Position numbers and translations under genes: made by a program. Below the pieces are notes generated by a model. It had not been told where the DNA came from. It saw only the letters and a list, made by a program, of their open reading frames with translations, and ran no database searches. Positions 22,297 through 41,192 of a stretch of DNA of 64,000 bases are shown piece by piece. The DNA is taken from the NCBI RefSeq assembly GCF_900106785.1, contig NZ_LT629845.1:125535-189534 (forward strand), written 5' to 3'. This stretch comes from Prevotellamassilia timonensis (GTDB lineage Bacteria; Bacteroidota; Bacteroidia; Bacteroidales; Bacteroidaceae). Each line of letters opens with the position of its first letter. Positions within the stretch are counted from its first letter, which is position 1.

Positions 22297-22304
22297 TAAA
22301 TTTG
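22297..22304 (+). promoter_or_regulatory. Candidate -7 promoter motif of the FAS1/SusCD locus
   Basis: TAAATTTG fits the -7 consensus TAnnTTTG, with CTTG 21 bp upstream (22272-22275) as a weak -33 element. It would give a leader of more than 200 nt before ATG 22525. The stretch 21942-22296 shows nothing else recognisable. Confidence 0.45.
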
Positions 22305-22524
22305 CAGTCAATTCACTAAGTGAGCATTGTCGAAAACAGCGTGCCTAATCTTTGAGCTTGTAAGGCAGTGTGAGCAAAATGCTGAGTTGTAACATGTCGA
22401 ATAGTTAATAAGTCGGTGTGTATCAACTTGATGGCATTCAGAAAACAGTTATCCAGGGGCCATCTTCCCTGACCATTATATCAGAAAACAAACAAAATAA
22501 AATAATTAATCCAATTCAAAGCGT

Positions 22525-25500
22525 ATGAAAAACCGTTTTTGCAGAATGGGTAAGCAGTTGCTTGGCGTAGCTTGCTTGCTTTCTACCTGCGGTGTGACGT
22601 ACTCGTGCTCCGACGATTATGATCTGGACGAAACAAAGCCCAGCTTCTTAGGTCAGAGTATATATGACGAGTTGAACGCCCGCGGTAACTTCAAAACTGT
22701 AATTAGGTTGATTGATGATCTGGGTTATAAGGACGTGATGCAAAAAACAGGTAGTAAAACCCTGTTTGTGGCAAACGATGAGTCTTATAATCAGTTCTTC
22801 TCAAGTAACAGTTGGGGCGTAAATAGCTACGACCAATTGTCTACTAACCAAAAGCGTTTGCTCCTGAATGGTTCAATGCTTAACAATGCTTATGTTGTCG
22901 AGATGTTGAGCACTATTCAGGGACCAGTTAAAAACCTTTGTCTCCGTCAGCTCTCTGCGTTGTCGGCTACTGACTCTGTGCCCTTCTTCAAGGCTGAGGA
23001 CTTACCTCACAACTTGAACAAGCCGACGAGTGAAACACCCGACAAGCGTTTTTGGGACCGTTACACCAATCCGGGCTATCCTGGCAAGGGTATTTATATG
23101 GCATTGGACAAAACCACGCCTATGATGACTCACTTCCTCCAGGCTCAGATGAATGAAAAGAATATCACACCAAGCGATATCTCTTTCATTCTTAACTTGG
23201 ATGGTACTGACAAGGCATGGAATGATAGCAAGAACCGCAGCTTCGTTTACGATGCCGAAATTACTACACCTGACGTAACTTGCTTGAACGGTTATTTTCA
23301 TGTGCTCGACAAGGTGCTTGTAACTCCGGGCAACATGGCTGAGGAAATTCGTAAAAATCCTGACACGAAGCTCTTCAGCGCCATGCTCGACCGCTTTAGC
23401 GCACCTTATTATGATGCTACTTTGACTGAGGAGTACAAAGCGCTGCACAGCATTCAGGCAGACTCTGTATTCCAAAAGTTGTATATAGCTCAGCGTGGCC
23501 AGCAGGGTTCTTTGGCTAAGGATCCCGATGGCGAAGATTTGGGTAGCTCAGTGTCTCGTCTTTCATACGATCCGGGATGGAATGCCTATTCTGTAGACAA
23601 CTCTACCAAGGAGCAGGATATGGCTGCCATGTTCGTGCCTAGCGATGAGGCTATGCGCAAGTACTTCCTCGAAGGTACTGGCCGCTCTTTGATTGAAAAC
23701 TACGCACCCAATAGCGATCACTCAAACTTGCTCGAGGACCTTTATCAGATTCCGCAAAACATTATGGTCAAGTTGATCAACAACTTGATGAAGGAATCTT
23801 TCAACTCTACAGTGCCCAGCAAGTATCTTTCTGTAATGAATACTGCACAGGACCAAATGTTCTCGCAGTATCCTGATGTGAAGGACTATAAGGCTGCTAT
23901 CGAAAAGGTGCTCGTGGCTAACAACGGTGTGGTTTATGTAATGAAGGACATGATTACACCGCCTGACTTTGCATCTGTTTCAGGTCCGGTGCTCTTTGAC
24001 CAGGGTACCCGCGTAATGAATACAGCCATTCACGCTGACGACGGACATATTACGTCTGATTATGCTAACGCTCCGCTGCGTAAGTTCTACAGCACTTATT
24101 TGCTCGCCATGCAGTCTAACTTCTCATTGTTTGTGCCGGTTGACGAAGGATTGGCCAACACTGGTTATGCTGACCCCGTGAGCTTTGCTGCTGGCAATGT
24201 GACGTCGTACAGATATTGGTCGTTGACACCATCTAATGTGACGGCCAAGGGCAAGGTTGTACCTGTCGTAGCAAAGGGTTATCGTTATGAGCGCGATGCG
24301 CAGATGAGTGCAAAGACTGACAGACCGCTCGGTACTTCAACTTCAAGTGCTGCAAATGATAATGTAGGCTCTGGCTTTGGTGCTACCAAGGCGCAGATTC
24401 TTTGTGACATGGTGGACCAGCACATTGTTGTACATGGTTCGGGCAATGGTGCTGAAAGCATCGAACCTAACCAAAGCTATTACTTGTCACGTAGTGGCGC
24501 TCCCGTTGTGGTAGTAACACACTCCAACAAGTCTGATGGCACAGGCATGGTAGTTGAAGGTGGTTTCCAACGTGATGTGAACAACGATAGATACCCCAAC
24601 AACAACTTCTCATGCAGTGTAATAAAGGGATTTGATCAGTCACGCGCTTCTATTGGTTATGGTAACGGTCACACTTACTTCCTCGACCGTCCTATGCAGC
24701 CTACTATCAACAATGTATTCACAGTGTTGAAGGATTTGGCTGAAAAGGACGCTGAGTATAGCAAGTTCTTCGAACTTTGCTCTTCGTTTGAATATGGTAT
24801 GAACGAAGATGAGTTGAAGGCCGCTTTCTTTGAGAATGCTGGTTTGACTGACAACCAGTGGACTACAGAGAAGCAGAAGTATGCCATCTTTGCCATGAAT
24901 GGTAGCGGTGTGGGAGCACGTCTGACTGCTGTCAACACCAGTTTGGTACGTTTCTTCAACAACTATCGTTATACTATCTTCGTGCCGACAAACGATGCTA
25001 TTACTCAAGCTGAAAGTCTTGGCTTGCCTACCCTTGAATCTATCAAGGCGTATGTAAAGGATAACTACACCGATAATAATAAGACTTGGAAGGAAGGCAC
25101 TCAGGATAAGGCAAAGGCAATGATTACTTGCTTGGTTGACTTCTTGAAGTATCACTTCTGCGACCAATCTTATTTTGTTGATGGTTACAGCGACAATGGT
25201 TACAACTTCAGCCAGTCTGCATGTAGCGATAGCAAGACTAATACATTTATTCCTGTTGCAGTACGTCATAAAGTTGGCGGACTCCAAGTATTTGATGCCC
25301 GCTCAATGACTAATAATGCTGGCGTGAATACTGGTGCTGTAATTGAAGGCAACGCTCAGGCAATTAATGTATCAACCGAGGAGGGCGCACACAACTTGTT
25401 CGCTCGCGACTATGAATTGAATGACGAAGCTACCAAAGCACGTAGCATTAAATCGTCTTCTTATGCTGTTTTGCATGGTTTGAAAGGTCAAGATTTCTTA

Positions 25501-25596
25501 CTTTTTAAGACGCTGACAGGTGGTCGCTTTGACAAGGATTGGGCTACTCCTGCTGCGGCAAGAGCATTTGTTAAGAAGTTCGGACTCAAGAAATAA
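22525..25596 (+). CDS. Surface lipoprotein with four FAS1 (fasciclin) domains
   Basis: The first gene of a seven-gene surface locus. The 1023-residue product has a lipoprotein signal (STCGVTYSC, lipidated Cys28) followed by SDD, acidic residues of the type that mark surface export of Bacteroidota lipoproteins. Four FAS1-like domains are visible by their H1 strand: KTLFVANDESY near 78, AAMFVPSDEAM near 367, FSLFVPVDEGL near 530 and YTIFVPTNDAI near 816. H2-like ends are NGYFHVLDKVL near 255 and NGVVYVMKDMI near 465. FAS1 domains mediate adhesion or ligand binding in other systems. The gene lies 11 bp before a susC-type gene. Ligand unknown. Confidence 0.88.
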   Translation: MKNRFCRMGKQLLGVACLLSTCGVTYSCSDDYDLDETKPSFLGQSIYDELNARGNFKTVIRLIDDLGYKDVMQKTGSKTLFVANDESYNQFFSSNSWGVNSYDQLSTNQKRLLLNGSMLNNAYVVEMLSTIQGPVKNLCLRQLSALSATDSVPFFKAEDLPHNLNKPTSETPDKRFWDRYTNPGYPGKGIYMALDKTTPMMTHFLQAQMNEKNITPSDISFILNLDGTDKAWNDSKNRSFVYDAEITTPDVTCLNGYFHVLDKVLVTPGNMAEEIRKNPDTKLFSAMLDRFSAPYYDATLTEEYKALHSIQADSVFQKLYIAQRGQQGSLAKDPDGEDLGSSVSRLSYDPGWNAYSVDNSTKEQDMAAMFVPSDEAMRKYFLEGTGRSLIENYAPNSDHSNLLEDLYQIPQNIMVKLINNLMKESFNSTVPSKYLSVMNTAQDQMFSQYPDVKDYKAAIEKVLVANNGVVYVMKDMITPPDFASVSGPVLFDQGTRVMNTAIHADDGHITSDYANAPLRKFYSTYLLAMQSNFSLFVPVDEGLANTGYADPVSFAAGNVTSYRYWSLTPSNVTAKGKVVPVVAKGYRYERDAQMSAKTDRPLGTSTSSAANDNVGSGFGATKAQILCDMVDQHIVVHGSGNGAESIEPNQSYYLSRSGAPVVVVTHSNKSDGTGMVVEGGFQRDVNNDRYPNNNFSCSVIKGFDQSRASIGYGNGHTYFLDRPMQPTINNVFTVLKDLAEKDAEYSKFFELCSSFEYGMNEDELKAAFFENAGLTDNQWTTEKQKYAIFAMNGSGVGARLTAVNTSLVRFFNNYRYTIFVPTNDAITQAESLGLPTLESIKAYVKDNYTDNNKTWKEGTQDKAKAMITCLVDFLKYHFCDQSYFVDGYSDNGYNFSQSACSDSKTNTFIPVAVRHKVGGLQVFDARSMTNNAGVNTGAVIEGNAQAINVSTEEGAHNLFARDYELNDEATKARSIKSSSYAVLHGLKGQDFLLFKTLTGGRFDKDWATPAAARAFVKKFGLKK

Positions 25597-25607
25597 ATAC
25601 CAATATT

Positions 25608-28600
25608 ATGAATAACATAAAGTTCCTATTAACGCTGGTCTTGTGCTTCTTTTGTGCTTTAGCCGCTAACGCACAGAAGCGCATCTCGGGTCGTGTGTGG
25701 AGTAAAGCCGACGGCCCCATTGTAATGGCGTACGTAGTTGAGCAGGACAAAAATAACCGTAACGTTACCGCAGCGCAAACTGATGCCAATGGTAACTTCT
25801 CTATGGTTGTAAAGAATCCGGCCAACCGTCTGCGCGTTTCTTACATTGGCTACCAGACGAAGATTCTTCCTATTGGTGCCAATGCGCGATTTAACATCGA
25901 ACTCATTGATAAGAATACGTTCAAATCTGCCGAGGTTACCACAACGCGTAAAACACGCTCTAATGGTCTCGTCATTCCTGAACGCGAAATTTCTACCGCT
26001 CAGCAAACGCTTGATATGGACCAGATGGCTGGCCTCTCGTTCGAGACAGCTGCCGACGCCCTTCAAGGTGAGATTGCCGGTCTTGACATTGTGTCAAACT
26101 CTGGTAACCTCGGTTCGGGTTCAAGCATGCGTCTGCGTGGTGTAACTTCTATCAATGGTAACCAAAACCCCTTGATTGTTGTCGATGGCTATATCCTTGA
26201 GGATTATGACAACAGTTCTCTCGAACTCGACAATATGGACAACCAAGAGCAGTTTGCCACACTCTTGCAGGTGGCTCCTGAGGATATTGCAAGCATCAAG
26301 GTGCTGAAAGATGCCTCGGCTACTGCTATTTGGGGTGCTCGTGGTTCGAATGGTGTAATCGAAATCACCACACGTCGTGGTGCTCGTGGTAAAACCAAAG
26401 TAAACTTCAACTATCGTTTCTCTGGTTCATGGCAGCCTTCAGGCATGAAAATGCTCAATGGTGACGGCTATACCATGATGTTGAAGGAGGCTTACCACAA
26501 CCCCCGTATGCTTACCGAGGAGCAGTCAAGTATTGCCGAAATCATGTACTTGACAAGCCACCCGTCTTATTATGGTAACTATAATAAGAACACCGATTGG
26601 GTTAAGGAGGTTACACAGTTTGGTCAGACTCATCAATATGGTGTGTCTGTATCAGGTGGTGGTGAAAAGGCCGTATTCCGTGTGTCTGGTACTTACGACC
26701 ACGAAACGGGTACCATCATCAAGCAGTCTCTTAACCGTTTGACTACGTTGATGAACTTGGACTACTGGGTTTCTGACCGTATCAAGTTCTCTTCAACTTT
26801 CTCTTTGACTTATACAAAGAATAATAAGAACTATGATAGCGGCATCTTGGGACGTGCATATAAGGCCATGCCTAATATGTCTATCAACCGCTACGAATAT
26901 CGCGAAACTGCTGATGGCGTGGGTGAATACTTCGACACTGGCGAATATTTCATCATGCCGCCGCGTGCCTCTTCTTCTGGCTTGGTAGGTGCTAATAGCG
27001 GTCGTACTTCTTATTATCTTAACGACATGATCACCAATGGTAACCCCGTGGCCATTGCCAATTTGGCTTGGCAGCACGAGTCTACCTATACCATCAAACC
27101 GCAGTTCAACATCGAGTACAAGTTGTTGGGCAAGAGCGATGATGAAACGGAACTCAACTACCGTGGTGATGTTTACATGAACGCTTACACTTATTCTTCT
27201 CAGTCTTACTATCCTGGTTCGCTCACTTCTGATACTTGGAGCGATGGTATTTACAAGACAAGTAATGGTGAGAACAAGAACCTTGAGTTCACAACCCGTC
27301 ACCAGTTGACTTTCCACCCGCACTTTGCAAATACTGACCACCAGTTGCAGGTTCTCGGCCGTTTCGAAATTACTTCGACTAACAGCACTTCGCAGAGCCA
27401 CTCAACTACTGGTGTGACTGGTGGTATCACCGACCCGACCGTAAATGGTTACCTCACTGGTTCAAGCTCGGGCACTGGCAAGAGCCACCGTGCAGCCGGT
27501 ACTGGTTCTATCCACTACGCTTTCGGTTCTAAGTACATCTTCGACTTCACGCTTCGTGCCGATGGTAGCACACGCTTTGGTTCGGGCAACAAGTGGGGCT
27601 TCTTCCCTGGTGTGTCTGGTCGTTGGAACATTTCTGACGAAAAGTTCTTCAAGCCTCTGCGCGGTGTCATCAGCATGTTGGCATTCTCTCCAGGTTGGGG
27701 TATGACTGGTCTTGCTCCAGGTAGCGAGGGCTTGATGTACAACAAGTACAACCGTAGCGGTGTATCATACAATGGTACGCAGGTAATGTATCCTGAAAAC
27801 TTGAAGCTTACCGAAATCCGTTGGGAGAAGACTAAGTCGTGGAACATTGGTGTGGACTTGAACCTCTTTGAGGACCTTATCAGGTTCAACTTGAATGTGT
27901 ACAACAAAAAGACTTCTGACTTGTTGAACTCTAACGTGCGTATCCCTTCTACTACCGGTTTCGCAAGATTGGCTTGGGCCAACGTCGGCGATATGGAGAA
28001 CAAGGGTTGGGAACTTTATGTTTCAACGCGCGACCTCTTCAAGGTGGGTAAGTTCAGCATGAACTTCCGTGCCAATATCTCTCAGAACTTGAACACTATC
28101 ACCAATATGGACGCTTCGGTGTTGGCTTCGTACAACACTGATATCCAATACTATAATGGTGAGGTGCTCAGCCGTGTGCAGATTGGTAATGCTTTGGGTG
28201 GTATCTATGGTTTCAAGTTCAAGGGCGTTTATGCTTACGACTACGACCACAATGGTTACTTCCAGCCCATCAATGGCCAGGAGAACCCGAAGAACAACTG
28301 GACTGACGAATATGGTAACCCGAACACGGCTGCCGGCAACATTCGTCCCGACTTGTGGGTAAGCGACAAGAGCTCTGCACGTCCTGAATTGGCCAAGTCT
28401 ACACCTATCGTGTTCGACGCCAATGGCAATGTAGTTTACGACAAGAACGGTAACCCGCTCCCCATGTACTTTAACTATGGTGGCAAGAACTACCAGTTTG
28501 ATGGTGGTGATGCTATCTACGAGGATATCAACCATGATGGTAATATCGACGAACTCGATATTGTATACTTGGGTACTTCTAATCCTAAGCTCAATGGTGG

Positions 28601-29081
28601 TTTCGGTGTGAACTTTAAGTATGGACGTTGGGAATTGAAGACTTCTTTCAACTTCCGTATGGGTAACAAGATCATCAACCTTGCTCGCTTGAATGCCGAA
28701 AGCATGACAAGCAACATGAACCAGTGTGCTTCGGTTAACCACCGCTGGCGCAAGAATGGTCAGTACACCACAATTCCTCACGCCATGAGTGCGAATGTTA
28801 AGACCACTTACAACTCATTGGTGAGCGACCGTTATGTAGAACCCGGCGACTTCCTCCGCTTCCAGTACTTCCAGCTTTCTTATAGCGTGGCTCCTGAAAA
28901 GTTGAAGAAGATCGGTTTGAACACATTGCGTATCAGTGCTTCAGGTAATAACTTGATTTTCTGGACTAAGTATTCAGGCGTTGACCCTGAACACTCTGCA
29001 GGCGGTTATTCTCCTTGTACTGACTCTTCGCAGACTCCGCGTTCTCGTTCATTCACATTTAGTTTGAACTTTGGTTTCTAA
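25608..29081 (+). CDS. SusC/RagA-family TonB-dependent outer membrane transporter (first)
   Basis: Energy-dependent importer of large ligands across the outer membrane, working with the SusD-type lid encoded next. The 1157-residue protein has a signal peptide (cleavage after ANA, about residue 22), a carboxypeptidase-like regulatory domain (about 24-105), a plug domain with the SusC hallmark RLRGVTSINGNQNPLIVVDG and the segment IKVLKDASATAIWGARGSNG, then a 22-strand barrel ending in the aromatic-terminated FTFSLNFGF. It begins 11 bp after the FAS1 gene, so translation is probably coupled. The ligand cannot be inferred. Confidence 0.96.
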   Translation: MNNIKFLLTLVLCFFCALAANAQKRISGRVWSKADGPIVMAYVVEQDKNNRNVTAAQTDANGNFSMVVKNPANRLRVSYIGYQTKILPIGANARFNIELIDKNTFKSAEVTTTRKTRSNGLVIPEREISTAQQTLDMDQMAGLSFETAADALQGEIAGLDIVSNSGNLGSGSSMRLRGVTSINGNQNPLIVVDGYILEDYDNSSLELDNMDNQEQFATLLQVAPEDIASIKVLKDASATAIWGARGSNGVIEITTRRGARGKTKVNFNYRFSGSWQPSGMKMLNGDGYTMMLKEAYHNPRMLTEEQSSIAEIMYLTSHPSYYGNYNKNTDWVKEVTQFGQTHQYGVSVSGGGEKAVFRVSGTYDHETGTIIKQSLNRLTTLMNLDYWVSDRIKFSSTFSLTYTKNNKNYDSGILGRAYKAMPNMSINRYEYRETADGVGEYFDTGEYFIMPPRASSSGLVGANSGRTSYYLNDMITNGNPVAIANLAWQHESTYTIKPQFNIEYKLLGKSDDETELNYRGDVYMNAYTYSSQSYYPGSLTSDTWSDGIYKTSNGENKNLEFTTRHQLTFHPHFANTDHQLQVLGRFEITSTNSTSQSHSTTGVTGGITDPTVNGYLTGSSSGTGKSHRAAGTGSIHYAFGSKYIFDFTLRADGSTRFGSGNKWGFFPGVSGRWNISDEKFFKPLRGVISMLAFSPGWGMTGLAPGSEGLMYNKYNRSGVSYNGTQVMYPENLKLTEIRWEKTKSWNIGVDLNLFEDLIRFNLNVYNKKTSDLLNSNVRIPSTTGFARLAWANVGDMENKGWELYVSTRDLFKVGKFSMNFRANISQNLNTITNMDASVLASYNTDIQYYNGEVLSRVQIGNALGGIYGFKFKGVYAYDYDHNGYFQPINGQENPKNNWTDEYGNPNTAAGNIRPDLWVSDKSSARPELAKSTPIVFDANGNVVYDKNGNPLPMYFNYGGKNYQFDGGDAIYEDINHDGNIDELDIVYLGTSNPKLNGGFGVNFKYGRWELKTSFNFRMGNKIINLARLNAESMTSNMNQCASVNHRWRKNGQYTTIPHAMSANVKTTYNSLVSDRYVEPGDFLRFQYFQLSYSVAPEKLKKIGLNTLRISASGNNLIFWTKYSGVDPEHSAGGYSPCTDSSQTPRSRSFTFSLNFGF

Positions 29082-29172: not shown

Positions 29173-31131
29173 ATGAATAGTAAGAAAATATATACAAAAC
29201 TCCTGCTTGCTGGCAGCTTGATCCTCATGGGCGGCGCAATGACTTCGTGCGACGACTATCTGACATTGCTCCCAACTGACCAGTTGCCTGAAGAGAACTT
29301 CTGGCAGGATAAGTCTGACCTTGATGGTGTGCGTGCTGGTGCATACAGTCAGTTGGCTAAGGCATCTCAGACTGAGAAAATATTGCAATGGGGTGAGTTG
29401 CGTTCAGACAATTTGTCTTTGAACAATGTGTCGAACACAGCTGTCGACAACTTGCAGAATGCTGTGTTGCAGCCGAGTGAGGGCATGTTCGATTGGTCTG
29501 GCTTCTACACAGGCATTAACTATTGCAACCTCGTATTGGAAAAGGGTTTGGACATGACCGTTCCTGGCAAGGAGGTTGACCCCAGCTTTACGCGTGCCGA
29601 CTACCGCTCATACCGTGCTGAAATGTTGGCTTTGCGTTCACTCTATTACTTCTACTTGGTAAGGTCGTTCCGCGATGTGCCTTATGTCACGAAGTCTGTA
29701 CGTACCGATGCCGAGGCAAGAGCAAGCAAGTCTGCTGCCGTGCCTGGTGTGGCTATCTTGGGTGAGTGCATCGACTCGCTCGAGGCTAACGTTAATTATG
29801 CAGCAAAGAACCTCGGTTCGGACGCTGACAACTGTGGCCGCTTTACAAAGAAGGGTATCAAGGCGCTGCTTGCTGATATGTGTCTGTGGCGTGCTTGCAT
29901 GCTCAAGGATTATGTGAGCAAGGAAAACACAGCACAAATCAATATGGACGACATTGCCGTTAAAGATGAGAATGGCAATGTAACTGGTTATACCACAAAG
30001 GATGGCAAGACTATAAATAACGCTTTGTGTAATGACTTGGCCAAGGCTTACTTGGAAAAGGCTAAAAACTATTCACAAGAAGTTATCGACCTCTTGTATG
30101 AAAAGTATTGGGAAGAGTTGCAGAAGAATTTGACTTCGGCCACTGCCGAGCAGAAGACGCAACCTTATCCCTTGTACTTGAACGAGCGCAAGATTACCAA
30201 TGGTATAATAGATAATTCTTACTCGAACAATTTCGGCTCGCAAAATTCGCTCGAAAGTGTTTTCGAACTGCAGTATGATGGTACTACCATGACCAATGGT
30301 ACTGTCAATAACTATTTGTCTACCTATTCAAACAACACCTTTACCCCGGGTACTATGGTGTTGTCTAACAACTTGCTCTCTTCTGTTACATCGGTTGATC
30401 CCGAAATTGGTTTTGGTAAGTCAGACCTCCGTTTGTTGGAGACTTGCTATTATCCTTACACAGGAACAGAAAAGCCTGTTTCAAAGTTCGTAACCCAGAA
30501 CTTCTCGATAACAAGCACTGAGGATATGTCGCAGCTCAACTCATTCTCGAATATCTCTGGTCGTACAACTTCTTCTAACAATGCACACTGGCCTGTTTAT
30601 CGCCTTACAGATGTGATGCTGATTAAGGCAGAGGCTATTGCACGTTTGGGCTTGATGTCTGGTTCTATCAGTGAGGCAGACTTGAAGGAGGGTTACAAGT
30701 TGATTAATGAGATATTCAAGCGTAACAACCCTGCTTTGGTTACACCTGCTGAAGCGCAGGCTGATGCCAACAAGCTGTCAAACAATTTGTACAGCGATCG
30801 TTTGAATGAGAACTACAATGTGACTGGCAAATCTGCTACCACGCTTCTGTCTAATGTATACCGTGAGCGCCAGCGTGAATTCGTTGCTGAAGGCAAGCGT
30901 TGGTACGACATCGTGCGTCAGGCTGAATTCTCGTATGTAGCCAACCAAAAGAGCACTTCTTCGGCTCTGGCGTTCGGTAGCTTCAAGCAGCAGGTTACTA
31001 ACCGTTTGTCAAAACTCTACAGCCTCTACAATCCGATTTACAGTGAGGAACTCAAGGTGAACGGTAAGGGACAGGCTGATGGTGGCAAGCTTGTGCAGAA
31101 CCCGATTTGGGATCGTTACACTAAAAAATAA
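29173..31131 (+). CDS. SusD/RagB-family nutrient-binding lipoprotein (first)
   Basis: The surface lid of the preceding SusC-type transporter. The 652-residue protein has a lipoprotein signal ending MTSC (Cys26) followed by DDYL, the usual SusD start. The TPR-rich N-terminal part includes ELRSDNLSL, and the C-terminal part has the conserved VYRERQREFVAEGKRWYDIVR and a final PIWDRYTK. An internal segment of about 260-330 (YTTKDGKTINNALCN and neighbours) is longer than in many SusD proteins. Located 91 bp after susC with a hairpin between. Confidence 0.95.
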   Translation: MNSKKIYTKLLLAGSLILMGGAMTSCDDYLTLLPTDQLPEENFWQDKSDLDGVRAGAYSQLAKASQTEKILQWGELRSDNLSLNNVSNTAVDNLQNAVLQPSEGMFDWSGFYTGINYCNLVLEKGLDMTVPGKEVDPSFTRADYRSYRAEMLALRSLYYFYLVRSFRDVPYVTKSVRTDAEARASKSAAVPGVAILGECIDSLEANVNYAAKNLGSDADNCGRFTKKGIKALLADMCLWRACMLKDYVSKENTAQINMDDIAVKDENGNVTGYTTKDGKTINNALCNDLAKAYLEKAKNYSQEVIDLLYEKYWEELQKNLTSATAEQKTQPYPLYLNERKITNGIIDNSYSNNFGSQNSLESVFELQYDGTTMTNGTVNNYLSTYSNNTFTPGTMVLSNNLLSSVTSVDPEIGFGKSDLRLLETCYYPYTGTEKPVSKFVTQNFSITSTEDMSQLNSFSNISGRTTSSNNAHWPVYRLTDVMLIKAEAIARLGLMSGSISEADLKEGYKLINEIFKRNNPALVTPAEAQADANKLSNNLYSDRLNENYNVTGKSATTLLSNVYRERQREFVAEGKRWYDIVRQAEFSYVANQKSTSSALAFGSFKQQVTNRLSKLYSLYNPIYSEELKVNGKGQADGGKLVQNPIWDRYTKK

Positions 31132-31139: not shown

Positions 31140-33356
31140 ATGAATACTTATATGTTTAATAGTCGTCGTTTGGTGGCTTGCATCTCGTTGCTGGCGCTCC
31201 TTGTCGCTCCCTTCACTTTTGTAGGGTGTAAGGAGGAGATCAGTGCTGATGCCTATGCCATCAAAACGAAGAAGACACTGGACGATTATTTGTCTGAACG
31301 TCCTGACCTGTCGAGCATTCGCGCCATATTTGCTGATGCAAAGTTGGGCGTTTCTGACAATGCGTCTTCTATAGAAAGTGTACTGTCTGCACGTGGTAAC
31401 TACACCGTGTTTGCGCCCAATAATGATGCCGTAGCAAAGTATGTGTCTTTGCTTACTAATGGTGAGAGCAGCGATTACAATGTGCTGACTCATGAGCAAA
31501 AGACAGCTGTCGCTTTGAACTGTATCATCGATAATGGTTCAAACTCGGCATACGAGTTGGCAGACTTTCCAAGCGATGGTATGTTTGCCACGACTAACTT
31601 GCGTGAGCGTCGTATCTCTTGCAAGCAGTTGACCTCAGGCGAATATCAGCTTAATGATACCGCAACGGTTATTGAGTCAAACTTGGAGGCTTCAAATGGT
31701 ATGCTTCACTTGATTAACAATGTGATCGTGCCTTCTGACAAGTCTGTAGTCAATCTGATCTCTGCCGCTCCCAATATGCGTATTATCAGCAAGTTGCTCG
31801 AAGTTACTGGCTATGCCGACCAACTCGGACTGCAAACCAAAGAGGAAGAGGCTTATGAAAAGGAGCACCTCTCTCATGCTGGTGAAAAGCGCACACTCGA
31901 AAATGCGGGTAGCGACTATACTTACCAAAGCAAGAGATTGATTGGTTATACCGCTTTTGTCGAAACCGACGACGTGTTTGCTTCAGATTGGGGCATAACA
32001 AAGCCCGATAACAACAATCCCGAACAGGTTGACGAGAACGGCTGTATTACCGATGCTTTCTGGAACAGCACAATACTTCCGCAGCTCAAGGCTAAGTGTG
32101 AGGCCATTTATGGCACGGCTGATGCTGATGATCTCAAGAAGGAGGGCAATGCCTTGAACAAGTTCATGGCTTATCACCTGCTTGATGGTAAAATTGTGCT
32201 TGAGGACCGTTCTGCCGTACACCATTGGAACGAGTACGACTACGAGTGTGGTGAGAGCTACACTGTAAAGTCTTCGACAAAATATATGGTTGATGTGTGG
32301 GATTACTATACCACAAAATCTGGCGCATTGCTCAAAATTACCCAAACTCCGGGTAAGGGCAAGGGCGACAATATTGGCGAGCCCAAGTATTATATCAACC
32401 GTGTGTGCAAGTACAACACGTTGTGGGACGGTTCACCTATCCTTGGCGACTATCAGGAAATCGATGGTAGCGTGCGTACAGGTGAGGGCTTGAACGTGGC
32501 ACCCAGCAACAAGAACCGTGTCGAAAGCAACGGAAAGGAAACCATTTATGAAAACGATGGTGCCAATGGCTATTATTTCCCCATCGACCACGTGCTTGTA
32601 AATGGCAATGCAACGAAGGACGCTCTGAGCTCAGAGCGTATGCGTATCGACTTCACCACATTCTTCCCCGAGATTCTTTCAAATGACATCAGAGGTTCAA
32701 AGCCTGCTTTCTTCCCGAGAGGATATTTCTCAGGCATTACAAACGAAAGCGTTGGTACCGAACTCTTCTATTTGCAAGAAGGCTTCTGCGGTAAGGGTAT
32801 GGACTGGAGAGACTATCAAGGCGATGAGTTCATTGCAACGGGCTTGTACGACTTGACAATTAAGTTGCCCCGTGTGCCTAAAGATGGTATGTACGAATTG
32901 CGTTTGGCAAGTTCAAACAACAACCTCCGTGGTATGGTGCAAATCTATTTGGGTGAATCGCCTAACATCATGAATCCTGTTGGCCTTCCAATCGACCAGC
33001 GTGAAACGGTTGACATGATTCCCGGTAAACCATGGGTTGATGACAAAGAGTCAGACTACGACGAGCAAACTTGTCGCGAGAATGACCGCAACTTGCGTAA
33101 CCAAGGTTACATGAAGGCACCGCAGTACTTCCACGCAGGTGGTAAGAGCAAAGCAACGCCGGCACGTAATATCGGTGGTTCGAGCTGCGCTTTGCGCCGT
33201 ATTTTGACCACGGACTATTTCAAGGCCAACCAAACTTACTATCTGCGTTTCAAGTCAGCCATACCTGACTATTCAAAGTCGCAGTTGTTCCTCGATTACA
33301 TAGAGTTCGTACCTTCAAGCGTATACAATGGCTCTGAGCCTGAGGACGTTTGGTAA
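31140..33356 (+). CDS. FAS1-domain surface lipoprotein
   Basis: The 738-residue protein carries a lipoprotein signal (FTFVGC, Cys30) followed by KEE. The first FAS1 domain spans about 45-200 (YTVFAPNNDAVAKYV near 86; SNGMLHLINNVIVPSD near 185). A second, more diverged one spans about 205-485 (IGYTAFVETDDVF near 266; KFMAYHLLDGKIVL near 341; FPIDHVLVNG near 477). The last 230 residues are beta-rich, with YDLTIKLPRVPKDGMYELRLASS and LFLDYIEFVP, resembling a carbohydrate-binding-type jelly roll; that is inference. It follows susD by 8 bp. Confidence 0.87.
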   Translation: MNTYMFNSRRLVACISLLALLVAPFTFVGCKEEISADAYAIKTKKTLDDYLSERPDLSSIRAIFADAKLGVSDNASSIESVLSARGNYTVFAPNNDAVAKYVSLLTNGESSDYNVLTHEQKTAVALNCIIDNGSNSAYELADFPSDGMFATTNLRERRISCKQLTSGEYQLNDTATVIESNLEASNGMLHLINNVIVPSDKSVVNLISAAPNMRIISKLLEVTGYADQLGLQTKEEEAYEKEHLSHAGEKRTLENAGSDYTYQSKRLIGYTAFVETDDVFASDWGITKPDNNNPEQVDENGCITDAFWNSTILPQLKAKCEAIYGTADADDLKKEGNALNKFMAYHLLDGKIVLEDRSAVHHWNEYDYECGESYTVKSSTKYMVDVWDYYTTKSGALLKITQTPGKGKGDNIGEPKYYINRVCKYNTLWDGSPILGDYQEIDGSVRTGEGLNVAPSNKNRVESNGKETIYENDGANGYYFPIDHVLVNGNATKDALSSERMRIDFTTFFPEILSNDIRGSKPAFFPRGYFSGITNESVGTELFYLQEGFCGKGMDWRDYQGDEFIATGLYDLTIKLPRVPKDGMYELRLASSNNNLRGMVQIYLGESPNIMNPVGLPIDQRETVDMIPGKPWVDDKESDYDEQTCRENDRNLRNQGYMKAPQYFHAGGKSKATPARNIGGSSCALRRILTTDYFKANQTYYLRFKSAIPDYSKSQLFLDYIEFVPSSVYNGSEPEDVW

Positions 33357-33382: not shown

Positions 33383-35275
33383 ATGAAACTAAATAAAGTA
33401 AAAAAGGTCATGGGCGGCACGTTGGGAGCAGCATTGCTCCTGGCTTTCCCCGCATGTTCAGATGACCATTACGATATCTTGACGGGTGCCGAAGGTTCAA
33501 ACAAAACTATTTGGCAGAACATCGAGAGTCACCCTGAGGAGTTAGACTCACTTGGTATGATCCTTAAGCAGGTCAGAGTCTACACCAAGGAGGAAGACAC
33601 CAAGCGTACAATGACCTATGCCGAATTGCTCAATCAGGCACAGTCGTTCACGTTCTGGGCTCCCCGCAACGGTACATACAATGCCAAGCAGTATCTTGAC
33701 CAGATTGAAGAGATCAAAGCATTGCGTGAGGCTGGTCAGACAGAAAAGGCCGACCGTATGGAGTATAACATCGGTTTGCAGTTCGCACAAAACCACATGG
33801 CCCGCTTCAACTATGAGGCTGAACAGTCACAGCAGAACGTGCGCCTTTTCAATGGCAAGTTGTGCTCATACAATGCAGGCGAGGGCGTATTCAATGCTGT
33901 AAAGCTTGATGCCACTATGCCTACTATCCCGTCGTCAAATGGTATGTTGCATGTACTCGACGGCAAGGCAGCCTTCGCTTACAACATCTATGACTACATG
34001 GGTGACAACGAGGACATCTTTCAGAATGTATATGGCACACTGACAGATCCTGAAATCAACAAACGCACATTCAACGAAGGTGCCAGCACTCCTGGTGGCA
34101 TGGGCGAGGACGGCAAGATGATCTATGTAGACTCGGTGTTCTATTACAACAACGAGTTGCTCAACTCTTGCGGTGCGCAGATCAAGAATGAGGATAGCTT
34201 GTATGTAGCGGTTATTCCTACCGATGCAGCTTGGACTGTGGCAGAAGAGAAAACGAAAAAGCTTTTCAACTACAGCACTTACTACAAGTACAACTACAAT
34301 CCTGTAAACGATGATGTGGACAAGGCATTTACTGCCGAAAAAACATTCTCAAAGGAAGATCGTGACTCATTGGTTGATTATAACACCAAGCGCACGATTA
34401 TTACGAGCATGTACTTCTCACCCTCAATCTTTGCACAGTCATTTGTAGAACAGTACAAGAAAAAGGACCGCGAAGAGGCCAAGGAAATGATTGCCAATTA
34501 TGCCATGTACGCCGACTCGTTGATTTCGACAAACAACAGTACGTTCTACAACCCCGTCAAGGGCCAGTTGAACCCGCTCTTCGGCGATGGTCACTATGTT
34601 AAGGCATCAAATGGTGTTATATTCCCCATCACTGAGTATAAGGCCGATCCTGCCAACACCATCATGCAGAAAAGCTCTATCGACATGCTTTACGACTCAA
34701 ATGTCGGTTTCTATTCAGTATCAGGTAGCATGGGTAAGGGCACTTACACCTACTTGGTAGAGGGTGATAACTGGAATAAGGATATTGACATCTCATCACT
34801 TGAAACAAAGGGCTATCGCTACTTCTCTGTACCTTCCCGTCAGACAAGTGCAATGAAGGTGTTCATCCCGCTTCAATCGCTCATGAGTGGCAAGTACCGC
34901 ATTCGCATCTTGCTCCTACCAAACCGCGTGGACCTCAACCACCGTTACTTGGTAGAAGACAAGGAAACTGGTGAGCAAAAGGAAATCATGCAAAATACCA
35001 AGTTCTTTGCTGCCGTTTACGATGACGAAGGTAATCAAATCGGTGAGCAAAGCCCTGATATAACTGTCGATGATAATGAGGTTAAGACATACACTTTGTT
35101 CGAGTCAATCGAAATACCCAAGTGCTATTACAACTTGCCTTCAGGTGTCAACAAGTGCTACCCGCTGTTGAAGCTCGAAATTCCTGGCAAGTTAAAGCCT
35201 TATCGTCCTTATCTTAAAACGCAGCCTTCAGGTTTGAGCGTCGTCAAAATATTTGTTGAACCCGTTGGTGAATAA
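33383..35275 (+). CDS. FAS1-like surface lipoprotein
   Basis: The start is taken at ATG 33383 (MKLNKVKKV), directly before the signal peptide; an earlier in-frame start would overlap the preceding gene. The 630-residue protein has a lipobox ending FPAC (Cys25) and SDD after it. Two degenerate FAS1-like segments are visible: SFTFWAPRNGTYN near 87 to SNGMLHVLDGKA near 183, and LYVAVIPTDAAW near 271 to SNGVIFPITEY near 408. The C-terminal 200 residues are beta-rich like those of the previous gene. The two probably arose by duplication and divergence. Confidence 0.82.
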   Translation: MKLNKVKKVMGGTLGAALLLAFPACSDDHYDILTGAEGSNKTIWQNIESHPEELDSLGMILKQVRVYTKEEDTKRTMTYAELLNQAQSFTFWAPRNGTYNAKQYLDQIEEIKALREAGQTEKADRMEYNIGLQFAQNHMARFNYEAEQSQQNVRLFNGKLCSYNAGEGVFNAVKLDATMPTIPSSNGMLHVLDGKAAFAYNIYDYMGDNEDIFQNVYGTLTDPEINKRTFNEGASTPGGMGEDGKMIYVDSVFYYNNELLNSCGAQIKNEDSLYVAVIPTDAAWTVAEEKTKKLFNYSTYYKYNYNPVNDDVDKAFTAEKTFSKEDRDSLVDYNTKRTIITSMYFSPSIFAQSFVEQYKKKDREEAKEMIANYAMYADSLISTNNSTFYNPVKGQLNPLFGDGHYVKASNGVIFPITEYKADPANTIMQKSSIDMLYDSNVGFYSVSGSMGKGTYTYLVEGDNWNKDIDISSLETKGYRYFSVPSRQTSAMKVFIPLQSLMSGKYRIRILLLPNRVDLNHRYLVEDKETGEQKEIMQNTKFFAAVYDDEGNQIGEQSPDITVDDNEVKTYTLFESIEIPKCYYNLPSGVNKCYPLLKLEIPGKLKPYRPYLKTQPSGLSVVKIFVEPVGE

Positions 35276-35361: not shown

Positions 35362-38300
35362 ATGAACAACAATAAGAAAATACACTTGATGCAGGGTACC
35401 CTGAGAGCAGGAGTATGTATGTTCATGCTTTCAGGTGCATGCGTGCTTTCAGCCCAGACCCCTCAAGATGGTGACAACGTTGCAGCCCATTCTGCCCCAA
35501 CGGCACCGGCTGCAAAGAAAAAGGCACCCAAATATCAGATGAAGGAGGTTACCGGATACGTGTTTGATGGTGCCACCCGCAAGCCTGTTGTAGGTGCAAG
35601 TGTTCAGTCGTTGAGCAACAGCTACTACAGCGCCATGACCGATGAGAATGGTAAGTACACCATTCGTGTGCCGGAGTTTGTAGACGTGTTGTATGTCTCT
35701 GCCAAGGACACCAACTACAATCCTGCCCAGTTGGCCATCAAGGGTGCCACAGGTCAGGACGTGTTCCTCACCAGCGGCATGAACGCAGACTTCTTTGCCA
35801 ATGGCACCAAGCTGAACAATAATCAGAAGATGATGGTTGACGAGCCCAACTCACTTACCATCGAGAACGAGATGGAGAAGGGGCTGGCTGGTAGCTTGCG
35901 TGTCATCAATCGTGGTGGTATGCCCGCTCAGGGTGCAGCCATGTTTATCAATGGTTTGAACTCACTCAACAGCAATGCACAGCCTCTTGTCATTGTTGAT
36001 GGTGTAATGCTCGATATGCAGTACGACCGCAGCTCTTTGCACCAGGGCTTTGTCAACAACGTGTTCAACATCATCGACCCCGATGACATTGAAAGCGTAG
36101 AAGTTGTCAAGAACGGTACTGCCCGTTATGGTGCAAAAGGCGCCAATGGCGTATTGCTCATCAACACCCGTCGTGGCAAGAGCATGGTAACACGCATCAA
36201 CTTCCGTGCCTATGCAGGTTTTGAAACTTCGCCTGAGCAGATGAAGGTGATGAATGCCAGCCAGTATCGCAACTACATCAGCGAATTGATTGGTACACAG
36301 CCCAACAACGACGTTGTCAGCAGCACCAAGACTACACCGTTCCTCAACGAGGATCCCAACTACTTCTACTACAAGCTCTATCACAACGAGACAGACTGGC
36401 AGAAGGACCTCTATCACAACACATTCACGCAGAACTACAAGGTGAGCGTTGATGGTGGTGATGATGTGGCATTGTATCACCTCTCTTTGGGTTATGCCCA
36501 GAGCGATGCCACAGCCAAGAAAAACGACTTCAACCGCTTGAGCATTCGTTTCAACACCGACGTAAACATGTTCAAGGACTTTGTTACAGGTTTGGACTTC
36601 GCTTATTCGCGTAATGCCTATAACCTTCGCGACAATGGTTGGGCCGAGAGCTATGCCACACGCAACATCACTTCGCCCAATGTGTTGGGCATGATACAGA
36701 CACCGTTCATCAGTCCGTATGCCTACTATGTACACTCTACGGGCAACAATCTCGAACTGGTACACTCTAACACCGTATATTCAGGCAAGATCTATAGCGA
36801 CAACAACAACCCCTATATGTTTGGCAGCAGCTACGGCTATACGGGCTTGATCAACCCCTATTGGATTTTGCAGAATGGTGATGGTGACAACAAGAACTTC
36901 CAGGAACAGACACAGTTCAATCTCAATGTATCTCCGAGCTACAAGATTAACCGTTTCCTCACCATCAAGGACCGTTTCAGCTATATCCTCAATCGCAGCA
37001 ACGAAAAGTACTACTTGCCTAAGTATGGTACACCTCCCAAGAACGTTGAAGGACTTGGCGATGTAACAAGTATCGTAAGTACACAGTTTGCCAAGGAAAC
37101 CACCCTTTACAACGACTTCTGTGTTGATTGGCACCGTGCCTTTGGCGCACACGACGTACAGTTGTATGGCGGTTTCCGCATGAACTCTTACTCATACAAT
37201 GCGAGCAACATCACTGGTTACAACAACGACCAGGATAAGATGCCTAACATGGCCTACTCATTGCAGTACAAGAGCTATGGTGGTGCAAACGACAAGTGGA
37301 CCAACTTGGCATATTACCTCAACGTAGGCTACAACTACAAGAACAAGTACTTCCTTACAGGTACCATGTCAATGGAAGCCTCTTCGCGTTTTGGTAAGAA
37401 GGCCGAACAAGGCATCAAGCTCTGTGGTGTTACTTGGGGTCTCTTCCCCTCATTGCAGGCTGCATGGGTTATGTCGTCTGAAAAGTGGTTCAATGTCAAG
37501 GGCATCGATTATTTGAAGCTCACCGGTGGTTATGAAATCAGCGGTAATGACAACATCGACTACTATGCCACACGTACATACTTTGCCAACACCCAGTTCC
37601 TTGACAAAGCAACGGCACTTGTACTCGAAAACATTCAGAACCCCAAGTTGCAGTGGGAAACAACCAAGCGTTATAACATCGGTTTGCAGGCAAGTGCCCT
37701 CAACAACCGCTTGAACTTCGCCATCGAATACTTCCACAGCAACACCGACCACTTGCTCACCCGCAAGGCAGTGAGCGACATCACAGGCTTGGCCACCATG
37801 TGGTCTAACGACGGTTCATTGCGCAACAGTGGTGTCGACTTCAACGTCAATGCCATGCTCGTGCAGCGCAAGGATTGGCGTTGGCAGGCAGGCTTCTCAA
37901 TCGGCCATTACAAGAATGAGATCACGGCTCTGCCTTCAACCTCGCTCAACACCATTCGCACATACGCCCTTGACGATAACGGCAACCGTATAGCTGATAC
38001 TGAAAAGCAGATACATGGTTACACCTCGTCAGTGTATGGCACCAACAACATACTTACCGCTGTAGGTCATGCTGCAGGTGTATTCTATGGTTACAAAACA
38101 GCAGGTGTGTTCTCATCAGACGCCGAGGCACGTGCAGCTGGCAAGGACGGCAATTACCTCCGCTATCCGACAGGTTTGGCCGAACAGCCCTCGCGCGACT
38201 TCAAGGCAGGTGATGTACACTTTGTAGACCAAAACGGTGATGGTTGGATCAACGAAGCTGATATGGTAGTCATCGGCGACCCCAATCCCGATATCTATGG

Positions 38301-38784
38301 TAACATCTACACCTCGCTCAGCTGGAAGGGCCTGAAACTCGACGTCAACTTCAAGTATTCTTTGGGCAACGACGTGTTCAACTACCAGCGTTCGCAGTTG
38401 GAGGCACTCAACAACAACTGGAATCAAACAACTGCTGCTGTCAACCGTTGGCGCTACGAGGGACAAAAGACCGACATACCCCGTGCAATGGATCCTACCA
38501 GCACACAGTGGGTAAACAACGAGCGTTTCTCAGACCGTTGGATTGAAGATGGTTCATACCTCAAGCTTAAGAATATCCGCCTTACTTACAATGTGCCTGT
38601 AAACCTCAGTTGGCTGCTTGGCCTCTCAGTATGGGGCGAGTGCAACAATGTGTTTACCATTTCCAAGTACACAGGCAACGACCCCGAGTTCTCGGCAGGC
38701 AACGGCGTGCTCTATCAGGGCATCGATGCAGGCTACCTCACCCAGGGCCGCAACTTCAATCTTGGTGTAACCATCAACCTCTAA
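35362..38784 (+). CDS. SusC/RagA-family TonB-dependent outer membrane transporter (second)
   Basis: From ATG 35362 (MNNNKKIHLM) the protein has 1140 residues; an earlier in-frame Met would add 17 residues before the signal peptide. A signal peptide (cleavage after VLSA, about residue 31) is followed by an Ala/Pro/Lys-rich linker (PTAPAAKKKAPKY), a carboxypeptidase-like regulatory domain with VTGYVFDGATRKPVVGASV, a plug with PLVIVDGVMLD and VEVVKNGTARYGAKGANGVL, then the barrel. The linker and the diverged plug (NGTARYGAKG in place of DASATAIYGSRG) set it apart from the first SusC. Partner is the SusD at 38869. Confidence 0.95.
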   Translation: MNNNKKIHLMQGTLRAGVCMFMLSGACVLSAQTPQDGDNVAAHSAPTAPAAKKKAPKYQMKEVTGYVFDGATRKPVVGASVQSLSNSYYSAMTDENGKYTIRVPEFVDVLYVSAKDTNYNPAQLAIKGATGQDVFLTSGMNADFFANGTKLNNNQKMMVDEPNSLTIENEMEKGLAGSLRVINRGGMPAQGAAMFINGLNSLNSNAQPLVIVDGVMLDMQYDRSSLHQGFVNNVFNIIDPDDIESVEVVKNGTARYGAKGANGVLLINTRRGKSMVTRINFRAYAGFETSPEQMKVMNASQYRNYISELIGTQPNNDVVSSTKTTPFLNEDPNYFYYKLYHNETDWQKDLYHNTFTQNYKVSVDGGDDVALYHLSLGYAQSDATAKKNDFNRLSIRFNTDVNMFKDFVTGLDFAYSRNAYNLRDNGWAESYATRNITSPNVLGMIQTPFISPYAYYVHSTGNNLELVHSNTVYSGKIYSDNNNPYMFGSSYGYTGLINPYWILQNGDGDNKNFQEQTQFNLNVSPSYKINRFLTIKDRFSYILNRSNEKYYLPKYGTPPKNVEGLGDVTSIVSTQFAKETTLYNDFCVDWHRAFGAHDVQLYGGFRMNSYSYNASNITGYNNDQDKMPNMAYSLQYKSYGGANDKWTNLAYYLNVGYNYKNKYFLTGTMSMEASSRFGKKAEQGIKLCGVTWGLFPSLQAAWVMSSEKWFNVKGIDYLKLTGGYEISGNDNIDYYATRTYFANTQFLDKATALVLENIQNPKLQWETTKRYNIGLQASALNNRLNFAIEYFHSNTDHLLTRKAVSDITGLATMWSNDGSLRNSGVDFNVNAMLVQRKDWRWQAGFSIGHYKNEITALPSTSLNTIRTYALDDNGNRIADTEKQIHGYTSSVYGTNNILTAVGHAAGVFYGYKTAGVFSSDAEARAAGKDGNYLRYPTGLAEQPSRDFKAGDVHFVDQNGDGWINEADMVVIGDPNPDIYGNIYTSLSWKGLKLDVNFKYSLGNDVFNYQRSQLEALNNNWNQTTAAVNRWRYEGQKTDIPRAMDPTSTQWVNNERFSDRWIEDGSYLKLKNIRLTYNVPVNLSWLLGLSVWGECNNVFTISKYTGNDPEFSAGNGVLYQGIDAGYLTQGRNFNLGVTINL

Positions 38785-38805
38785 CAGAAAAGGGTAGGGA
38801 GTGGG

Positions 38806-38838: not shown

Positions 38839-38868
38839 TCACCTCTCAACTCTCAATACAATACAGCA

Positions 38869-41103
38869 ATGAAACACAAATCGATTTTAAGTCTTCTCAT
38901 CTTCCTCATGGGATTTGGTGCTGTCACCACATCTTGCGAAGATATGTTGACCCCCGATATGAATCGTTACGCTGAAAACTTTAGTGGAAAGGATACCATC
39001 TACTTCTACACAGGTATTTTGCGTAACGTTCAGGACATGGTTGAGCAGAACCAACTCTTGGGTGACCTGCGCAGTGATTTGGTAGCCCCAACAGCTTATG
39101 TGAGCGACTCCGTTTCGGGCATAATCAATTACGACCGCACCAATGCCAATGCCAATCGTGACGGCGACAATGGCTTGCTCAATCGTTCTGCCTACTACAA
39201 GGTAATCAACCAGTGCAACTTCTACCTTGCCAAGGTTGACACCAGTGCAGTAAAGAACAACATTTACTACATGAAGCGTGAGTATGCACAGGTTGTTGAC
39301 ATTCGTGCTTGGGCTTACATTCAGTTAGTACAGACTTACGGCCGTGTACCTTTCATCACCAAGCCTGTTGACAATGCCGACACCGGTTGGGAAACCAAGC
39401 CCGAGGGCGACATCTGGGCAACAGCCGACAACTTGGTCGACCTGTTGAAGGGCGACCTCGAGCGTGCCAATGCCATAGAGCACACTTTAGGCTATCCGCA
39501 GTATGGTGAGTTTGCCACAGGTAATGACAACTTCAAGGTAAACAGTTCATATTTGCGCTTCTATTCCGACATACTCCTTGGCGACCTCTACCTTTACCGT
39601 GGTGCCTCAAAGCAAGATTATGTTGAAGCAGCTAAGAATTACTACTACTTCCTGAAGGAGCAGTCACGCAAGGGCGTAGGTGTATCAGGCTCTTATGCCA
39701 CATTCGGCAAGAACATCAACACCAATGGCTCATATAGTTATTCGCCCAACATCAACTCATGGGTGTCACGCGGCCTTGCAGCCACATCGCTCAATGCCGA
39801 GAATGTCACTTTGTTGCCTTCAGCTGCCAACAGCACCTTTGGTCGCGTTTTGACCAAGGTGGCACAAATCTATGGCTTCGATTCTAACTCAACCAACAGC
39901 ACCTCGTCAAGTGGTTCTACATCAGGTAGTGTTTCACTCAGCGTAAACTATAAGTCACGTCAGGTAGAGCCCTCAAATGCGTATCTCAATCTCTGTAAGG
40001 CTCAGAACTACTCTGTTACAACTTCAGATAACACCACAGGTGCTCCTACCAGCGTAGAGTATTACACTGGCGCAGGTGATGCACGTTTGGCTGCTACAGC
40101 TCCTATCTTCGAAACCAAGGAGGGAGGCCGCAACCGTTACATTGTAAAGGAGGCTCCTGTAACCTATGTCAATGCCAGCAGCACAGCAGGTGGTTACGAC
40201 TTCAGACACTACAAGTCAATCTATCGTCTGAAGCAAATTTACTTGCGTTACGCCGAGGCAATCAACCGTGCCGGCTACCCGCGTTTGGCTTACGCCGTGC
40301 TCAACACAGGTTTGACTAAAAACACCGTTCCCGAATTGGGCGACTCTATCGCTTACGACGACGCTGCACATACAAAGCAACTCGTTTATTACTTGGATAG
40401 TACCAAGACCACGACTCCCTATCATGCCGCATTCTTCGTCGGTGTTGATGAGTTGCGCCGTGCACAGGCTGAGCCCGAGTACGCCAAGTTCCTCGACTTC
40501 ACCTCAAACAACTGGTCAAACGTAGGTATTCATGAGATGGGTACAGGCGTAACCTCGTCAATGGACAGCCTCAATAGCTTTGCATTGGCTGTACATGGCA
40601 ATATTGCCAAAGGCGGAAAGATCAAGGGTCGTATATTGCAGGAAAAAGAGCGTTGTGCAGCACTTGCCGAGACCAATGTGCAGAGCATCAAGCGCCGTGT
40701 ACGTTTGCCTTGGAACGATGTTGTAACACCTGAAGAAGGTGGTACTACCACACCAAGCCTCGAGGAGCAGCGCAAGGACTATGAAACGCTTGATCCGGTT
40801 GAGCCGCTTGCCGCAGATCCTGCCGAAATCAATGCTGTTGAAACGTTGATTGCTGACGAATATGCACTCGAAACGGCTTATGAGGGTACACGTATGTTTG
40901 ACCTCATTCGTATTGCCCGTCACATGAACCTTGACAGCAACACTGCTGCCGATTATGGTACAAAGTGGTTGGCATGGAAGATTGCCCGTCGTAACTTTGA
41001 TGGTGCACCTTACGAGACACCTGCCACTTACGATGGCTTACTCTTCGGCAAATTGCTCGTTGAGGATAACTGGTATATCATCAGTCCTGTTTATAACAAG
41101 TAA
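38869..41103 (+). CDS. SusD/RagB-family lipoprotein (second, with Ser/Thr-rich insert)
   Basis: A 744-residue SusD-type protein with lipidated Cys23 (VTTSC) and EDML after it. Family marks are GDLRSDLVAPTA, the TPR part around IRAWAYIQLVQTYGRVPFIT, YLRYAEAINRAGYPR, and the C-terminal EYALETAYEGTRMFDLIRIARH. It is longer than usual because of a Ser/Thr/Gly-rich low-complexity segment at about 338-362 (SNSTNSTSSSGSTSGS) and an acidic Pro-rich loop near 630-650. The gene closes the seven-gene locus and is followed by a terminator. Confidence 0.93.
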   Translation: MKHKSILSLLIFLMGFGAVTTSCEDMLTPDMNRYAENFSGKDTIYFYTGILRNVQDMVEQNQLLGDLRSDLVAPTAYVSDSVSGIINYDRTNANANRDGDNGLLNRSAYYKVINQCNFYLAKVDTSAVKNNIYYMKREYAQVVDIRAWAYIQLVQTYGRVPFITKPVDNADTGWETKPEGDIWATADNLVDLLKGDLERANAIEHTLGYPQYGEFATGNDNFKVNSSYLRFYSDILLGDLYLYRGASKQDYVEAAKNYYYFLKEQSRKGVGVSGSYATFGKNINTNGSYSYSPNINSWVSRGLAATSLNAENVTLLPSAANSTFGRVLTKVAQIYGFDSNSTNSTSSSGSTSGSVSLSVNYKSRQVEPSNAYLNLCKAQNYSVTTSDNTTGAPTSVEYYTGAGDARLAATAPIFETKEGGRNRYIVKEAPVTYVNASSTAGGYDFRHYKSIYRLKQIYLRYAEAINRAGYPRLAYAVLNTGLTKNTVPELGDSIAYDDAAHTKQLVYYLDSTKTTTPYHAAFFVGVDELRRAQAEPEYAKFLDFTSNNWSNVGIHEMGTGVTSSMDSLNSFALAVHGNIAKGGKIKGRILQEKERCAALAETNVQSIKRRVRLPWNDVVTPEEGGTTTPSLEEQRKDYETLDPVEPLAADPAEINAVETLIADEYALETAYEGTRMFDLIRIARHMNLDSNTAADYGTKWLAWKIARRNFDGAPYETPATYDGLLFGKLLVEDNWYIISPVYNK

Positions 41104-41151
41104 TTACGTGGGCGTGGCAGATAATCCCGCCCATACGGAATACATCTAATT

Positions 41152-41192
41152 AAGGATTCGAAGTTTAGTCAAACAAACTTCGAATCCTTTTT
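41152..41192 (+). terminator. Intrinsic terminator of the FAS1/SusCD locus
   Basis: A 15-bp perfect stem (AAGGATTCGAAGTTT, 41152-41166, with 41175-41189) and an 8-base loop followed by a T-run, 48 bp after the last stop codon. Confidence 0.92.

Follow-up and report, generated by a model that had tools for sequence, protein, structure and literature searches.

Two SusCD pairs and three FAS1 lipoproteins in a recurring seven-gene cassette of Prevotellamassilia timonensis, probably for glycan uptake

What function is served by a locus that encodes two SusCD outer-membrane transporters and three fasciclin (FAS1) lipoproteins, with neither an enzyme nor a regulator beside them? The question is raised by a stretch of 64,000 nucleotides from Prevotellamassilia timonensis (contig NZ_LT629845.1, positions 125,535 to 189,534), referred to below as the window. 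Seven intact genes, all on the forward strand, occupy positions 22525-41103 and could be assigned from the open reading frames (ORFs) as FA, SusC1, SusD1, FB, FC, SusC2 and SusD2, where FA, FB and FC are the three FAS1 lipoproteins; this confirms the one-directional order FAS1, SusC, SusD, FAS1, FAS1-like, SusC, SusD of the initial annotation. Our preferred reading, to which we give a probability of about two in three, is that the cassette takes up a nutrient, most likely a glycan, across the outer membrane, the FAS1 lipoproteins capturing the glycan for the two SusCD transporters.

Both transporters are TonB-dependent and match the NCBI SusC model TIGR04056, SusC1 (25608..29081) with an E-value of 1.1e-191 and SusC2 (35362..38784) with 1.5e-169. 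The Pfam SusD models are passed by both lid lipoproteins, by SusD1 (29173..31131) with E 2.2e-17 for PF07980 and 8.4e-14 for PF14322, and weakly by the divergent SusD2 (38869..41103; PF14322 E 1.1e-7, PF07980 E 1.7e-6). Two adjacent susC/susD pairs, as expected of a polysaccharide utilisation locus (PUL), are therefore present; no carbohydrate-active enzyme was seen in the window's own locus and no sensor-regulator adjoins the cassette there. The cassette of the window is called PUL-like and not a canonical PUL because such enzymes are absent from its locus, though they are found beside many relatives outside the genus.

The initial annotation was to be given up if these FAS1 genes showed no conserved association with SusC and SusD in a survey of neighbourhoods; the survey instead found FAS1-SusC-SusD units repeatedly, in a fixed order, and far outside Prevotellaceae as well. 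Within the genus of the window, relatives of FB occur in 45 of 58 genomes and FC in 43, including 18 of the 19 high-quality ones. The exact seven-gene order was recovered by automatic annotation in 25 of 40 FB regions fetched from the 60-odd places listed; of the remaining 15, ten carry FB without the cassette and five deviate through variation or artefact (a duplicated FB, a split SusC, a contig end and, in two, a miscalled ORF). Among 20 regions retrieved through FB matches from elsewhere in the order, in other genera and families, 13 have the exact gene order, and in other orders of the class all eight loci fetched, from seven genomes, have it. A scan of a larger collection, for which an FB alignment served as query (the single FB sequence of the window retrieved no relative), confirmed at least 576 FB relatives, and 62 of the best 80 of these lie in the exact order. 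The other 18 comprise six at contig ends, two with an opposite-strand ORF called for FA and ten with FB without a cassette. Many of these best 80 point to ruminant or horse guts, and the named species include Xylanibacter muris and Hallella seregens. After removal of the duplicates L118, L136, L059 and L106 from 100 exact loci, the 96 non-redundant ones are on a single strand throughout, with median gaps of 8.5-31.5 bases, and the divergence of the cassette genes is correlated (rho 0.81-0.94), to which shared ancestry alone contributes. Across the 28 regions L219-L246 (20 from the order sample and eight from other orders) the order is exact in 15, and FC is directly followed by SusC2 in 27, the remaining one being cut by a contig end.

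A profile of FC matched 84 of 392 genomes in the order sample at E <= 0.001, general FAS1 proteins included, and 36 of 392 at E <= 1e-20 (count from the table); two of the six same-family genomes other than the window's own were matched. In the phylum sample only eight of 392 genomes, the window's own among them, matched at E <= 1e-20, so the cassette is uncommon outside the order. Among PLSDB plasmids, one weak partial match was obtained. As judged from gene order, the FAS1-SusC-SusD cassette behaves as a conserved unit across families and orders of the class.

All five lipoproteins (FA, SusD1, FB, FC and SusD2) carry a lipobox cysteine followed by acidic residues, as had been noted initially, a sequence signal of the surface-export type; the cysteine is invariant in the aligned rows of FB (66/66) and FC (54/54). 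FA (22525..25596; 1023 aa) has three to four FAS1 domains (PF02469 E 9.3e-17 in three stretches; profile matches near residues 43-150, 238-266, 369-479 and 744-839), and no jelly roll was detected in it on profile evidence. FB (31140..33356; 738 aa) also passes the PF02469 cut-off, while FC (33383..35275; 630 aa) lies below it (E 0.19), and a sequence search of solved structures with FC gave no match. Structure models show both FB and FC as FAS1 proteins with a C-terminal jelly roll like that of carbohydrate-binding modules (CBMs), in the layout FAS1-FAS1-jelly roll for FB and FAS1, a probable second FAS1 and jelly roll for FC. The jelly rolls resemble MiXBM (7ehg), a Paenibacillus xanthan lyase (6f2p), CBM4 and CBM35, a likeness of fold only, at 7-20% sequence identity. 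The solved folds closest to the modelled FAS1 parts are the FAS1 tandems of periostin and TGFBIp. These two and fasciclin I are tandem FAS1 proteins like FA, FB and FC, but they are eukaryotic adhesion proteins, and we know of no lipid anchor or jelly roll in them.

A SusE/F-like binder, listed as absent in the initial annotation, is probably not missing, because the C-terminal jelly rolls of FB and FC are CBM-like and the two proteins may represent such a binder in another form. With a C-terminal domain of glycan-binding type on a multidomain stalk and a surface-export-type signal, the modelled layout of both is probably that of a surface glycan-binding protein (SGBP) in which FAS1 domains replace Ig domains. 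The two heads differ in conservation. Between genus and outside rows the jelly roll is the best kept domain of FB (identity 0.34, against 0.29 and 0.24 for the other domains) and the least kept of FC (0.16 against 0.28 and 0.27). A similar difference is seen within the genus (FB 0.52 against 0.49 and 0.43; FC 0.31 against 0.43 and 0.41), and among outside rows it is nearly gone (FB 0.37 against 0.38 and 0.36; FC 0.31 against 0.33 and 0.34). With the reserve that FC heads from different clades cannot be aligned with certainty, these values suggest that the FC head tracks the ligand and the FB head does not.

The genes beside the cassette outside the genus were scanned with Pfam, 29 proteins on the upstream side and 64 on the downstream side, the latter from 52 loci, leaving out the duplicated flanks of L080/L082, flanks shorter than 240 aa and those more than 600 (downstream) or 500 (upstream) bases away. 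The downstream proteins include ten Reg_prop-type regulators, as in hybrid two-component systems (HTCS), nine SASA esterases, six members of glycoside hydrolase (GH) family 30, four Abhydrolase_2 proteins, two sugar transporters and one each of GH115, a GH51-type arabinofuranosidase and GH8. Upstream, three GH43, three esterases, two GH67, two GH98 C-terminal domains and several housekeeping genes were found. Next to further cassettes are a family 11 rhamnogalacturonan lyase, GDSL/SASA esterases, GH2 or GH44. Many flanks gave no informative match. Judged by these neighbours, the cassette outside the genus goes with plant glycans of several kinds, with enzymes for xylan or pectin nearby; since many cassettes adjoin such enzymes and ten adjoin HTCS-type regulators, the neighbourhoods point to glycan uptake. 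The initial statement that the system has no enzymes and no regulator thus holds for the window and fails for the module, whose relatives often adjoin GH30, GH43, GH67, GH115, GH98, GH51-type enzymes, rhamnogalacturonan lyase, esterases and HTCS-type regulators. Close downstream of outside-genus cassettes, 13 distinct secreted-looking proteins of up to about 1,150 aa were also seen (L141:18524-21964 and 12 relatives); the L141 protein, scanned alone, had no Pfam match at E <= 0.001, and the family may be one of uncharacterised proteins that act on glycans or bind them.

In the genus of the window the cassette stands alone. GH10 occurs in two of 58 genus genomes and in none of the 19 high-quality ones, and GH43 in 27 of 58, not including the window's own genome; on these two xylan families, the ones searched, xylan was dropped as the ligand in the genus. 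GH20 was found in 57 of the 58 genomes, with eight matches in the window's own, and GH92 in 51 of 58 (15 of the 19 high-quality), the window's genome giving a single, partial match. Because GH10 is nearly absent and GH20 and GH92 are common, a host-type glycan bearing N-acetylglucosamine or mannose, as the usual activities of GH20 and GH92 would imply, is probably likelier than xylan, although our confidence in this is low. The one high-quality genome that carries neither FB nor FC (G057) is the only one of the 58 without GH20 and is also without GH92; it may be an outlier of the genus.

A protein or glycoprotein ligand had been considered in the initial annotation, and the corresponding alternative is that the cassette is, in this genus, an importer of peptides or glycoproteins, similar in function to RagAB, whose FAS1 proteins hold protein ligands. 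It would fit the lack of an adjoining glycan enzyme in the window and the closest solved folds, since the FAS1 tandems of periostin and TGFBIp bind proteins, and a glycoprotein would suit the GH20 and GH92 enzymes encoded in the genus. We nevertheless consider it unlikely in view of the glycan enzymes and HTCS-type regulators beside many relatives and the CBM-like heads modelled on FB and FC; moreover, no peptidase family is present among those listed for the flanking genes (25 of 38 families in one tally, 25 of 36 in the other). Nothing found points to protein as such, and the glycan of a host glycoprotein is what survives of the earlier proposal, as the best guess for the genus.

Since FAS1 is a classic adhesion domain, the cassette could also be mainly an adhesion device, its FAS1 lipoproteins fastening the cell to the matrix of a plant or host, with the SusCD pairs secondary. 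One paper interprets a FAS1 gene with high transcript levels in a mussel symbiont in this sense (PMC10199937). If the FAS1 proteins did not work with the transporters, it would be hard to explain why their genes alternate with two SusCD pairs in the same way across families and orders; enzymes and regulators also stand beside the relatives, so that we regard this explanation as quite improbable. That the cassette is a degenerate PUL, decaying in this genus after loss of the enzymes and regulator that many relatives still have beside them, is very improbable, as all seven frames are intact, the marker FC is kept in nearly all high-quality genus genomes, and in ten loci of the genus, as in the window, the region fetched with the cassette includes lpxD, which looks like a stable locus.

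Under the preferred reading of glycan uptake, the three FAS1 lipoproteins would serve the two SusCD transporters at the cell surface, with FB and FC standing in for SusE/F-type SGBPs. Their FAS1 part would sit close to the rim of SusC, as a stalk or dock, and the jelly roll would be the outward part. The FC head, the least conserved domain of FC, would read the ligand; the FB head, better kept between clades, would have a more general task, for instance docking or bridging; and FA, with FAS1 domains only, may be a scaffold. Captured oligosaccharides would be handed by the SusD lids to SusC for TonB-driven import, and enzymes and regulator would come from next door in many relatives and, in the window's genus, from other parts of the genome. 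The SusCDs and FAS1 lipoproteins may form a physical complex. Of the earlier idea that FAS1 lipoproteins are ligand-capture subunits of two cooperating transporters, the first part looks right, while cooperation is kept as a supposition.

FB is not bound to the cassette. Six genus cassettes have the order FA-C1-D1-FC-C2-D2 with FB cleanly absent (L204-L209; no FB by tblastn), and all six of these genomes encode FB elsewhere, for which reason FB seems to be needed, yet suppliable from another place in the genome. An additional FB is found in 11 of 37 genus genomes that have FB next to FC, against 6/6 here (Fisher 0.002, a test that ignores phylogeny). In other families its position varies, FB preceding FA in L230, L232 and L234 and being absent in L235 and L237. 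Eleven solitary-FB loci of the genus were fetched (L007, L069, L073, L075, L076, L103, L107, L114-L117), and GH20 or GH92 lies beside FB in two of the three whose neighbours were Pfam-scanned (L007, L075, L076): in the window's own genome the neighbour of FB is a GH20 that bears a ricin-type lectin domain, and in another genus genome the genes after FB encode a ricin-type lectin protein, GH92 and GH20. Outside the genus, one solitary FB is near a rhamnosidase, an apiosidase and GH127. With neighbours scanned in three of eleven loci, a genus-wide link of solitary FB to GH20/GH92 is not claimed. In two genus genomes (L073, L076) solitary FB was seen by eye within a few kb of tuf- and rpoB-like genes, perhaps a second conserved home for FB.

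These features lead to a more far-reaching version, which we put forward tentatively, as possible rather than probable: a class-wide "double utilisome" in which two different SusCDs are joined by FAS1 scaffolds into a single outer-membrane machine, the FC head is swapped or diversified to set the glycan, and FB works also from elsewhere. Known utilisomes provide the comparison. The levan and dextran utilisomes of Bacteroides thetaiotaomicron are described as a SusCD core to which further surface lipoproteins are added; in the levan SGBP, Ig-like domains make up the N-terminal part and the C-terminal domain, which binds glycan, faces outward. Whether complex PULs build mix-and-match assemblies is named there as an open question (PMC7618045). 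The surface lipoproteins on a SusC platform and the binder with stalk and outward binding domain resemble what is proposed for FB and FC; but those utilisomes have one SusCD type, one SGBP and one GH, with no FAS1 mentioned in these passages, whereas the cassette has two SusCD pairs, three FAS1 lipoproteins with FAS1 stalks and no enzyme in its core unit. PUL-XylL of Bacteroides ovatus, for complex xylans, likewise has two SusC/D pairs, and GH30, GH43, GH67, GH98 and GH115 are families of the B. ovatus xylan PULs (PMC4491172). Examples of GH30, GH43, GH98 and GH115 also adjoin outside-genus cassettes. PUL-XylL differs in the inactive GH10 and PDB 3N91 protein named for it, the loci being set against each other by description, and the term "fasciclin" does not occur in the text of that paper (PMC4491172).

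The open-access literature searched for FAS1/fasciclin with SusC/SusD, Bacteroidota, xylan, lipoprotein and TonB yielded no account in which FAS1 genes belong to a SusCD locus, and the seven-gene FAS1 double-SusCD cassette looks undescribed. The usual model of glycan uptake in Bacteroidota has a single SusCD whose surface binders are of Ig type; a seven-gene unit that combines two transporters with three fasciclin lipoproteins, and whose order is kept from family to family and in several orders, suggests another standard architecture. FAS1, usually read as adhesion, would gain a concrete, testable role, the question of multi-transporter assembly in complex PULs would become directly testable, and annotation of the hundreds of FB-type genes would be helped.

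Several minor features accompany the cassette. A candidate promoter (+), with TTG at 22273 and a TAnnTTTG box at 22297-22304, ends 221 bases 5' of the FA start and is not significant on the motif alone. The strong terminator reported initially after SusD2 was found again as a hairpin of 15 pairs followed by a T-rich tail (41152-41189, +). Between SusC1 and SusD1 lies a very stable hairpin (29091-29149, +) whose outer arms are a perfect 11 bases; the segment 29079-29172 folds with -38.2 kcal/mol (z -6.0). No second copy was found in the own genome, and Rfam gave nothing above the gathering threshold at 20800-42100. Because the susC1-susD1 gap has a median of only 20 bases in the 96 loci, the hairpin seems special to the window's lineage.

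Elsewhere in the own genome, on contig C14 (L008:5448-10170), an FB-like gene (572 aa, no N-terminal FAS1) and an FA-like gene (1006 aa) form a pair with no lipobox in the signal peptides and no SusCD, by eye near a tyrosine recombinase-like gene. In the window, a VapE/DUF3874-type gene (42037-43437, -), of a kind often carried on mobile elements, lies between the cassette and lpxD, and a GmrSD-type restriction endonuclease gene is present at 53083-54912 (-). In a genome of another family (L093:3047-11199), a few kb from lpxD, which comes after the cassette in the window's genus, two tandem FB genes stand without the cassette.
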